From Oscillospiraceae bacterium (lineage in GTDB: Bacteria; Bacillota; Clostridia; Oscillospirales; Oscillospiraceae): a DNA stretch of 64,000 bases. The stretch is from NCBI GenBank assembly GCA_902795045.1, contig CADBJU010000013.1, positions 28,170 to 92,169 on the forward strand, in the 5' to 3' direction. Below, in pieces: positions 54,050-56,474 of this stretch. Under the pieces are notes generated by a model, which saw only the letters and a program-made list of their open reading frames with translations, was not told the origin of the DNA and searched no databases. The first letter of the stretch is position 1, and the number at the start of each line of letters is the position of its first letter. Position numbers and translations under genes: made by a program.

Positions 54050-54631
54050 ATGATTATGAATATAAAGAAGCTTTTGCCCGTGCTGGTGCTTCTGCTGGCG
54101 GCGGTCTGGCTCTTCCTGCCGGACACCGGCAACACGGCGCAGATGCCCGCCGCGACGCCTGCGCCGACCCAGAGCGTGCAAACCGTCGCTCCGGCGCAGA
54201 CGCCGAAGCCCTCCCCGGCGCAGACGCCGAAGCCCGCCGCCACGCCGAAGCCTGCCGCCGCACCGACACAGACCCCGGGCGAGCAGACGATCGACGAGAA
54301 CGGGAGTTACACCACCAAGGAAGACGTGGCCCTGTATATTCACACCTACGGTCATCTGCCCGATAACTTTATCAGGAAGAAGGACGCCCAGGCCATGGGC
54401 TGGACCGGCGGTTCGCTCGAGTGGGTGCTGCCCGGCATGTGCATCGGCGGGGACTACTTCGGCAATTACGAGGGGCAGCTGCCCAAGGCCAAGGGCCGCC
54501 GCTGGACCGAGTGCGACATCAACACCCTCGGCGCGCGCTCCCGTGGCCCCGAGCGCATCATCTTTTCCAACGACGGACTCATCTACTACACCCCCGACCA
54601 CTATGAGAGCTTCGAGCTGCTTTACGGGTGA
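54050..54631 (+). CDS. Exported barnase-type ribonuclease
   Basis: 193 residues: a signal peptide or anchor (LLPVLVLLLAAVWLFL, about 8-23), a Pro/Ala/Thr-rich linker with QTPKP repeats (about 35-78), and a barnase-fold domain (about 85-193). It shows IHTYGHLPDNFIRKKDAQAMGW, IGGDYFGNYEGQLP, GRRWTECDIN, RIIFSNDGLIYYTPDHYESF. The barnase catalytic triad is kept as Glu154, Arg169 and His184, with near-identical spacing. It should cleave RNA outside the cell. No barstar-like inhibitor gene lies in the window. ATG 54050 or 54056 are both possible after AGGAG. The stop is 3 bp from the first 0A box of spo0A. Confidence 0.85.
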   Translation: MIMNIKKLLPVLVLLLAAVWLFLPDTGNTAQMPAATPAPTQSVQTVAPAQTPKPSPAQTPKPAATPKPAAAPTQTPGEQTIDENGSYTTKEDVALYIHTYGHLPDNFIRKKDAQAMGWTGGSLEWVLPGMCIGGDYFGNYEGQLPKAKGRRWTECDINTLGARSRGPERIIFSNDGLIYYTPDHYESFELLYG

Positions 54632-54634
54632 GCG

Positions 54635-54796
54635 TTCGACACGTTTCGACAAAGGCAGCGAAAAAAGATGGGAGAATCCTGAAAGAATCCCTTGAACACT
54701 GTCAGAAAATATAATATTATGTCAACAGATAATCCCGATCATTCGACAGGATTCTGTTGTCGCAAAAGGCCCCCGTATGCTAAATTTATTGCGACA
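54635..54796 (+). promoter_or_regulatory. Spo0A-box cluster upstream of spo0A
   Basis: Exact 0A boxes (TTCGACA, reverse of TGTCGAA) occur at 54635-54641, 54645-54651 and 54742-54748. Variants reading TGTCGCA and TTGCGACA occur at 54758-54764 and 54789-54796. The first two are 10 bp apart, one helical turn. This supports direct autoregulation of spo0A. Confidence 0.75.
54692..54720 (+). promoter_or_regulatory. Probable promoter of spo0A
   Basis: TTGAAC (54692-54697), 17-bp spacer, TATTAT (54715-54720), between the upstream and downstream 0A-box groups; the leader would be about 137 nt. Confidence 0.55.
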
Positions 54797-54863: not shown

Positions 54864-55658
54864 ATGGAAACCAGGATTCGTATACTCACCGCCGACCCCA
54901 ACCGGGAATTTTGTCGCCAGCTGTCCGAGCTCATGACGGCCGAGGGCGACATGGAGATCATCGGCATGGCCTCCGACGGGCTGGAAGCGCTCGAGCGCGT
55001 GGCGGAGCTCAAGCCCGATCTGCTGCTTCTGGAGCTGGTGCTGCCGAAGCTGGACGGGCTGGAGGTGCTGCGCCGCCTGCGGGACAAGGGGACAAGCTGC
55101 CGCGTGATCGTGCTGTCAGGCTTTGTCAACGGCAAGGTCATCGCCGAGTGCTCCGACTGCGGTGCGGACTATTTCATCCCGAAGCCCTGCGACGTGCAGG
55201 CCCTCATCAGCCGCATCCGCCAGCTGAGCTTCGATCTGCCCCGCACCCCGGGCGTGGGTGTGGACTTCCGCCAGAGCGCGGAGGGCAGCTACAACGACGC
55301 GGACCTGGAGGCCATCGTCACCGACATCATCCACGAGATCGGCGTGCCCGCTCACATCAAGGGCTACCAGTACCTGCGCGAGGCCATCATCCTCACCATC
55401 AAGGACATGGACATGATCAACGCCGTCACCAAGGTCCTCTACCCCGAGGTAGCCAAGCGCTTCGGCACCACCCCGTCCCGCGTCGAGCGCGCCATCCGCC
55501 ATGCCATCGAGGTGGCCTGGGACCGCGGCGACGTGGAGACCCTGCAACGCTTCTTCGGCTACACCGTGAGCGGCATCAAGGGAAAACCCACGAATAGTGA
55601 ATTTATCGCGATGATCGCTGACAATCTTTCCCTCAAACGCAAGCACGCCGCGAGGTGA
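54864..55658 (+). CDS. spo0A: Sporulation response regulator Spo0A, with Glu at the phosphorylation site
   Basis: 264 residues with a receiver domain (about 1-120) and the Spo0A DNA-binding domain. The latter is strongly conserved ([67 protein letters not shown]). Spo0A starts sporulation once phosphorylated. Here the position of Bacillus Asp56 is Glu57 ([15 protein letters not shown]; codon GAG 55032-55034), and the acidic pair Asp10-Asp11 is Asp11-Pro12. The conserved Thr is Ser85 and the Lys is kept (Lys107). Classical phosphorylation is therefore doubtful. ATG 54864 follows GGGAGG; a longer frame from 54846 is unlikely. Confidence 0.95.
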
Positions 55659-55671
55659 GTGTGTTCTTGTA

Positions 55672-55717
55672 CACTTCCGGTTTATCAAGTATGTCTGATA
55701 AACCGGAAGTGCTTTTC
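55672..55717 (+). terminator. Terminator of spo0A
   Basis: CACTTCCGGTTTATCA (55672-55687) pairs perfectly with TGATAAACCGGAAGTG (55696-55711), then CTTTT. A strong terminator that separates spo0A from the hicAB island. Confidence 0.88.
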
Positions 55718-55820: not shown

Positions 55821-56006
55821 ATGAAATACAGTGAGCTTGAGAAAAAGCTGCAGGAGGCCGGATGTAGCATTTCACGGGAAGGGAAAAACCATACTATATG
55901 GTACAGCCCTATTACCGGAAAGAGCTTTCCGGTTGGAAGGCATCAGACTCAGGATGTACCGCCCGGGACGTACAGGTCAATCATGAAGAGCGCGGGCCTT
56001 ATATAA
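55821..56006 (+). CDS. hicA: HicA-type mRNA interferase toxin
   Basis: 61 residues of the HicA dsRBD-like fold: KYSELEKKLQEAGCSISREG, then the catalytic His in GKNHTIWYSP (near 27) and the closing RHQTQDVPPGTYRSIMKSAG. HicA cleaves mRNA independently of or at the ribosome until bound by HicB. It is first in the pair, 69 bp before hicB, with GGAGGAAG upstream. The codon use is AT-richer than that of neighbouring genes, which fits transfer. Confidence 0.9.
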   Translation: MKYSELEKKLQEAGCSISREGKNHTIWYSPITGKSFPVGRHQTQDVPPGTYRSIMKSAGLI

Positions 56007-56075
56007 CGACATATTCCCAATAAGAAATACAGATAACACGAAAAATCGAAAAGCGAATAAGAAGGGAAGGAAAAC

Positions 56076-56474
56076 ATGAGCGAAAGGAGATATGTATATC
56101 CGGCGATTTTCACTCCGGAGAACGGCGCATACAGCGTTGTTTTTCCCGATCTGGAAATTGCCACGTCCGGCGAAACACTCGTCGAGGCAATAGATATGGC
56201 GCAGGATGCACTATGCCTGATGCTATACGATATGGAGGAACGGAAAGCGGATATTCCTGCGGCAAGTTCTATTACAGATCTAAGCTGCGAACCCGGCAGT
56301 TTTACAAGTCTGATTGAATGCGATACGATGGAATATCGGCGTTATTATGACAGCAAGGCTGTAAAGAAAACCCTCAGTATTCCCGCATGGCTCAACACCA
56401 TGGCCGAGAAGGAGGACATCAATTTCTCAGCAGTTTTGCAAAAAGCCTTGAAGGCTGAACTGAATCTGACATGA
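56076..56474 (+). CDS. hicB: HicB-type antitoxin
   Basis: 132 residues. The RNase-H-like HicB domain (about 5-60) reads YPAIFTPENGAYSVVFPDLE then EAIDMAQDALCLML. The C-terminal part (about 95-132) reads like a ribbon-helix-helix (KKTLSIPAWLNTMAEKEDIN). HicB neutralises HicA and usually represses the operon; the two TACGTAAT palindromes at the promoter are the likely sites. A hairpin terminator follows. Confidence 0.9.
   Translation: MSERRYVYPAIFTPENGAYSVVFPDLEIATSGETLVEAIDMAQDALCLMLYDMEERKADIPAASSITDLSCEPGSFTSLIECDTMEYRRYYDSKAVKKTLSIPAWLNTMAEKEDINFSAVLQKALKAELNLT

Follow-up and report, generated by a model that had tools for sequence, protein, structure and literature searches.

All endospore formers start sporulation via Spo0A, which is activated by phosphorylation of a conserved Asp, as summarized in the available text of a 2024 review (PMC11210211). 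Pseudo-receivers, which are receivers without key phosphotransfer residues, are described in the abstract of PMC12632262, where their switching mechanisms in bacteria are said to remain a mystery; that paper does not mention Spo0A anywhere in its main text. In pseudo-receivers and aspartate-less receivers such as ChxR and RitR, a non-acidic DD2 position, Glu in place of the phosphorylatable Asp, and the retention of DD1 and the active-site Lys are each a common state, as far as the accessible parts of PMC12632262 and PMC4395418 go. The latter source also reports that an Asp-to-Glu change alone is often insufficient in receivers and names Spo0A in this respect; in its available text, Spo0A appears for a mutant and in the reference list alone. 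Phage-borne Spo0A (PMC10294663, available part) has a Spo0A DNA-binding output that may need no phosphorelay signal, as may be the case for the protein described below. No description of Spo0A pseudo-receivers in the group studied here was found in searches of open-licence PMC papers.

The spo0A locus described here lies in a 64-kb stretch of DNA (the window) from an uncultured Oscillospiraceae bacterium that probably inhabited a ruminant gut. Its closest named sequences were Ruminococcaceae-labelled MAGs, RUG13650 (99%) and RUG14429 (98%), the prefix of which we take to denote rumen genomes; the titles of further relatives referred to Oscillospiraceae from goat, sheep or roe deer gut, and the relatives found were MAGs. 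The translated protein of 264 aa matched TIGR02875 spore_0_A (NCBIfam) over residues 4-260 with 313.6 bits (cut-off, 200), and it was the single Spo0A above cut-off in the window genome (92% complete). Profile scans placed a Response_reg match at residues 7-119 (76.2 bits) and a Spo0A_C match at residues 152-255 (155.9 bits), the latter covering the full profile from 1 to 104. The locus contained the following features:

54635-54651, plus strand: tandem predicted 0A boxes, TTCGACA-nnn-TTCGACA, 10 bp apart (exact pair in 52/72 genus rows)
54692-54720, plus strand: sigma-A-like promoter, TTGAAC-17-TATTAT, with 9/12 matches (-35 starting with TTG in 69/72 genus rows)
54742-54748, plus strand: predicted 0A box TTCGACA, 3' of the -10 element in what is presumably the leader (exact in 60/72 genus rows)
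54864-55658, plus strand: spo0A, 264 aa, with a pseudo-receiver (about residues 4-122), a linker and a Spo0A_C DNA-binding domain (about residues 147-260), from translation, profiles and alignment
54894-54899, plus strand: Asp11-Pro12 in place of the canonical Asp-Asp metal pair (DPN for DDN), from translation and alignment
55032-55034, plus strand: GAG encoding Glu57 at the Asp56 phosphorylation position, from translation and alignment
55116-55118, plus strand: Ser85 at the switch Thr/Ser position, from translation and alignment
55182-55190, plus strand: Lys107-Pro-Cys109, the conserved active-site Lys with Cys at K+2, from translation and row comparison
55672-55711, plus strand: terminator-like hairpin 3' of spo0A, a weak call (one found in the region against 1.3 expected by chance)

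The window protein shares with canonical Spo0A of Bacillus and Clostridium its two-domain layout, its DNA-binding domain, the 0A boxes at its own gene and the co-occurrence with spore genes, whereas it lacks the phospho-acceptor Asp and the second metal-binding acid, shows changed coupling positions, and comes from a genome in which no Spo0E-like phosphatase was found. The preliminary description of this DNA had placed Glu57 in the column of Bacillus Asp56 (LDIIMPHLDG), had read DPN for the DDN acidic pair, and had called the DNA-binding half intact. All three were borne out: Glu57 shares its column with the LDIIMPHLDG aspartate of the solved receivers 9phz_E and 1dz3_A, Asp11-Pro12 aligns with their DD pair, and the DNA-binding half, which carries the full Spo0A_C profile, aligns without gaps with 1lq1 and 1fc3. 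Compared with the same receivers, Lys107 was retained and Ser85 replaced Thr. The latter is ordinary, since Ser occupies the Thr position in 62/69 Spo0A rows from other orders of the class. Of the features of a canonical receiver, the conserved Lys is thus found in the window protein, and the phospho-acceptor Asp and the pair of acidic metal-binding residues are not. A receiver recognized at the profile level, with both the acceptor Asp and the second metal acid replaced, is a pseudo-receiver by the definition in the abstract of PMC12632262, and the window Spo0A receiver is so classed on its residues. A sequencing or assembly error behind Glu57 is unlikely because 16 genus genomes carry the same Glu and Pro, as does one named record; Glu also occurs elsewhere in the genus. 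In an AlphaFold model, the receiver (residues 1-120) had five helices and five strands, with ten-residue blocks scoring pLDDT 72-92; this model was used no further because it was built on a 5-row alignment and all blocks past residue 120 had pLDDT below 60.

Spo0A rows were gathered from the family, genus, order and class of the window. None of 91 distinct family genomes had an acid as the second metal-binding residue, and 78 of them carried Asp and 13 Glu at position 57. Among 192 distinct rows from the family and near relatives (239 before identical proteins were merged, with named rows at or below 150 bits against the window protein excluded as plain receivers of other phyla), the second acid was absent in all 191 that were readable. 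Position 57 was Asp in 149 of these 192 rows, Glu in 42 and Gly in one, Asp was kept at position 11 in 183, and the active-site Lys in 190. The family rows are a non-random sample, consisting mostly of best-scoring matches together with 30 hand-picked family genomes (mostly lower-scoring) and the genus. In contrast, 61/69 rows from other orders of the class (the 30 best-scoring and some 40 lower-scoring ones selected by hand) had Asp at the second metal position, and 65/69 had it at the phosphorylation site. In 45 rows from further families of the order, the second position was Asp in 20 and Glu in 6 more, the site was Asp in 33, and the Lys was gone in 4. Some Spo0A pockets in other families were more degraded, with Asn at the site and Met for Lys in L194 (G407) and L255 (G632), Pro for Lys in L272 (G416), and Gly at the site in L193 (G525).

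Position 57 has changed repeatedly between Asp and Glu. A FastTree phylogeny of the 192 rows, with five active-site columns removed, required at least 13 such changes, and a genus tree, whose 89 rows took in named rows and outgroup genera, at least 9. In the genus tree, in which 34 of 86 forks were open (weak) and several named rows sat on very long branches, the window fell in a starred set of 18 rows, comprising 17 Glu+Pro rows (16 genomes and the named record L099) and one Asp row, L303, whose placement just outside the 17 is unsettled because of the open forks. Separate Glu groups in the genus were two starred sets of 2 and 6 rows and the lone Glu row L355. Judged from these trees and alignments, Glu at position 57 arose repeatedly beside a family-wide loss of the second acid. 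The preliminary description had asked for relatives to be aligned and the residue mapped on a tree, which yielded the 16 Glu+Pro genomes and the recurrent interchange; it had overlooked that, as the alignments indicate, the loss of the second acid is a change of the whole family, beside which Glu arose many times. The charge at position 57 seems to be kept by selection, even though the site changes often, because only 1/192 rows had neither acid. By our own arithmetic, at most about one in four amino-acid changes of an Asp codon evolving neutrally would lead to Glu. In genus rows, Glu was found in 22/28 with Pro or Phe at DD2 vs. 3/45 others; these counts suggested a co-change of the two positions, yet independent pairs gave a median p of 0.22 and the association was not retained. 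Compared with other pseudo-receivers, the protein considered here is Spo0A, the endospore master regulator, and it is distinguished by the loss of the second acid in all readable rows of the family sample together with the repeated interchange of Asp and Glu.

The coupling positions of the Spo0A receiver are also changed in the family, as judged by comparing 179 family rows (those at or below 240 bits excluded) with 54 canonical rows from other orders that were picked for an intact DDDSK pocket. Phe87 at T+2 was found in 97% of family rows (canonical Val, 74%), Phe104 at K-3 in 88% (canonical Tyr, 83%), Cys109 at K+2 in 91% (5% of canonical rows, where Phe makes up 77%), and Leu60 in 96% (canonical Met, 94%). 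We take K-3 to be the Tyr of the Y-T coupling pair. Among the positions singled out in receivers by the accessible part of PMC12632262 are T+2 and K+2.

Spo0E-like proteins were found in none of 27 family genomes, compared with 19/19 canonical class genomes that had been picked for high Spo0A scores. They were detected in 9/40 other class genomes (8 above cut-off) and in none of 40 genomes of other families in the same order. The pattern is nested: 17 of these last 40 genomes have an intact pocket, and for this reason the absence of Spo0E as a plain consequence of pocket loss is not supported. By receiver state, Spo0E-like proteins occurred in 0/59 genomes with a broken pocket vs. 28/65 with an intact one (124/126 genomes with a Spo0A row). 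The Spo0A tree called for no fewer than 20 changes of the pocket (160 rows) and no fewer than 6 of Spo0E (105 rows), and an independent-pairs test on it, in which the family was limited to 45 rows and the window, gave no support for an association of Spo0E with the pocket. An order of events in which Spo0E went first is a reading and not a result of the test, because neighbouring rows hardly differ in Spo0E.

The window genome contained nine HisKA matches, of which eight lay in or beside frames with receiver-domain matches; four of the nine shared a frame with one (hybrid kinases), and such hybrids could feed a relay. The preliminary description had proposed a comparison with orphan kinases and spo genes. 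The sole candidate for a dedicated orphan kinase among the HisKA matches, the ninth, which had no neighbouring receiver match, was kept in 36/37 genus genomes including all 10 without Spo0A, and its orthologues adjoined a receiver-domain match in G334, G301, G805 and G818; it was rejected as such a kinase.

The upstream region of spo0A was searched with the 0A-box consensus. Three exact boxes were present in the 400 bp upstream of the window gene (at -229, -219 and -122 from the start codon), a number reached in 0/2000 mononucleotide shuffles of this sequence. Across the 64 kb the motif was not enriched (9 found vs. 6.6 expected), and it is thus the cluster and not single boxes that counts. 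At least two exact boxes were found in the upstream 350-400 bp in 25/25 Glu and 46/48 Asp rows of the genus (shuffled mean 0.05; rows with less than 350 bp upstream excluded from box counts). At least one box was present in 6/7 Glu and 32/47 Asp rows of other family genera, in 10/24 rows of other families of the order, and in 26/30 of other orders; at least two were found in 0/7 Glu and 11/47 Asp rows of other family genera, and the cluster was not seen beyond the genus. An alignment of 27 hand-chosen genus rows showed the tandem pair 10 bp apart, the -35/-10 pair and the leader box. With rows of less than 260 bp upstream excluded, the tandem pair was exact in all 16 rows of the window clade (listed by hand), 7/9 other Glu rows and 29/47 Asp rows, and the leader box in 16/16, 6/9 and 38/47, respectively. 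An additional box just upstream of the -35 element (at most one mismatch) occurred in 35/47 Asp and 8/9 other Glu rows and in 0/16 window-clade rows, which makes a simple positive loop at this promoter-proximal box doubtful. A tie between the loss of this box and Glu was rejected, since 8/9 other Glu rows keep the box, 12/47 Asp rows are without it, and the tree gave no support. Exact boxes upstream of spoIIE, located with a crude start-codon rule, were found in just 3/8 Glu-type and 0/18 Asp-type genomes and were dropped as a shared feature. The product of the gene 5' of spo0A (54050-54631) looks secreted and carries a ribonuclease domain (PF00545), presumably of the barnase type; in L357, a similar 195-aa frame also precedes spo0A.

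Directly downstream of spo0A in the window (55821-56474), a 61-aa frame resembling HicA is accompanied by a HicB-like antitoxin (PF15919). In L354, L355, L356, L357, L358 and L360 (genus genomes G807, G821, G823, G824, G833 and G796), the terminal 171 bases of spo0A occur twice: the repeat copy, with 147-153 of 171 bases identical, lies at a distance of 2.1 to 16.3 kb on the 3' side of the complete gene. No such second copy was present within the window. A tyrosine recombinase followed spo0A in L357 (as a short frame), L358 and L360; a WYL regulator and restriction-modification genes were also present in the latter two, and a Fic gene in L355. Mobile elements, some of them with defence genes, thus seem to use the 3' end of spo0A for integration. 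In the Glu-type L359 (G828), spo0A was split over two frames near its 3' end, with an extra 3'-end fragment about 3 kb downstream. Extra matches to the DNA-binding half of Spo0A alone were found in the genus genomes G806, G856 and G858, recalling phage Spo0A as described in the available part of PMC10294663.

Estimates of dN/dS for nine rows of the window clade were 0.20 in the receiver, 0.42 in the linker and 0.08 in the DNA-binding domain; the receiver values of four further clades of the genus, one of Glu and three of Asp type, were 0.13-0.41, the clades having been set by hand. These ratios indicate that both Spo0A domains are under purifying selection and that the protein is still used. 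Phage-borne Spo0A lacks a receiver (PMC10294663, available part), whereas that of the window protein is present and under selection. Among the spore genes, SpoIVA was found in the window genome above cut-off (632.8 bits) and in 7/8 Glu-type, 17/19 Asp-type and 0/10 Spo0A-less genomes of the genus, the Glu-type exception being G817, which gave no match. A SpoIIE match was present in the window genome (E 1.2e-105) and in all 26 Spo0A-bearing genomes searched (8/8 Glu-type), in each case below the curated cut-off. Ten genomes of the same genus (G109, G224, G264, G780, G815, G832, G842, G845, G846 and G855), all at least 91% complete, had neither a Spo0A above cut-off nor a SpoIVA match, and sporulation therefore appears to have been lost within the genus.

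We give about even chances to the reading that the window Spo0A is a pseudo-receiver protein that needs no phosphorylation and whose activity is set mainly by its amount. The protein would take up no phosphoryl group, and the fixed acid at position 57 would contact Lys107 and Ser85 and hold the receiver in a dimerisation-capable form; because of this, activity would depend mainly on the amount of Spo0A, which autoregulation at the three predicted 0A boxes would set together with further inputs into the promoter of spo0A. In this family, position 57 could switch between Asp and Glu because charge alone would still be required. Phosphorylation independence, as put forward in the preliminary description, is supported by the loss of the acceptor and of a direct metal ligand, the changed coupling and the lack of a detected Spo0E-like phosphatase; the accompanying idea of Glu alone as a constitutive phosphomimic fared less well in view of the available text of PMC4395418. 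Gating at the level of expression, which had also been put forward, is suggested by the predicted 0A boxes upstream of spo0A; on the main reading, Spo0A is probably gated by its own amount. A wider version, in which the family and, in several independent steps, parts of the order start sporulation without Spo0A phosphorylation, is offered tentatively, at somewhat less than even chances: the phosphatase would have been lost first, the pocket would then have decayed repeatedly, and the switch would have passed to Spo0A concentration, in the genus via 0A-box feedback on spo0A. The main reading has to contend with the HisKA hybrids, the nested Spo0E pattern, the few boxes at spoIIE, the lost proximal box, the restriction of the cluster to the genus, and the insufficiency of Asp-to-Glu changes in the accessible part of PMC4395418.

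Glu57 might instead be a plain phosphomimic that renders Spo0A constitutively and fully active, so that sporulation would be decided solely at later steps or through the transcription of spo0A. Among receivers without the aspartate, the most frequent substitute is Glu (26%; PMC4395418), and Glu can partly mimic phospho-Asp in many response regulators (PMC12632262), as far as the available text of both sources goes, and the promoter-proximal box is gone in all 16 window-clade rows, as if the feedback had been rewired. However, that loss is not associated with Glu on the tree, and the upstream boxes and SpoIVA are retained in Asp-type relatives whose metal site is broken in the same way, so that function in the genus does not require Glu. 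This, together with the reported insufficiency of Asp-to-Glu alone in Spo0A (PMC4395418, accessible part), weakens the simple phosphomimic idea, which we regard as rather unlikely. Control by another signal, such as redox or a ligand acting at the changed pocket, e.g. via Cys109 beside the Lys, or a partner protein, is distinctly unlikely in our judgement. It would account for the prevalence of Cys109 in the family, and redox- and ligand-controlled pseudo-receivers exist (PMC12632262, available part), but about 9% of the family rows are without this Cys, the redox Cys reported in that source sits elsewhere, at DD+19, and neither a ligand nor a partner was identified.

That phosphorylation persists, with a different residue (Asp11, Ser85 or Asp64) as acceptor or with a kinase of another type, is highly improbable: the near-invariance of Asp11 and Lys (183/192 and 190/192 rows) and the hybrid kinases of the window genome would fit it, whereas the protein has neither the usual acceptor nor the direct metal ligand, the coupling positions are altered, and no Spo0E-like phosphatase was found in that genome. 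There is very little to recommend the idea of a receiver decaying in a lineage that is abandoning sporulation. Both Spo0A and SpoIVA are missing from 10/37 genus genomes examined, the receiver evolves faster than the DNA-binding half, and among Glu-type genomes G828 has a broken spo0A and G817 lacks a SpoIVA match; on the other hand, three Asp-type clades span 0.13 to 0.41 in receiver dN/dS and the window clade falls between these values, position 57 is acidic in 191/192 rows, and 7/8 Glu-type genomes keep SpoIVA and 8/8 a SpoIIE match.

To return to the reading in which phosphorylation is not needed, the relatives show the same kind of pocket change, which suggests that spore formation in them may start without the usual phosphate signal. 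If this is true, the central rule of Spo0A phosphorylation would have a large exception among intestinal anaerobes, in which the pocket has been lost across a family sample while the DNA-binding domain, the 0A boxes upstream of spo0A and the spore genes have been kept, and the Asp and Glu forms of close relatives would provide a natural series for the role of the acid in a pseudo-receiver.
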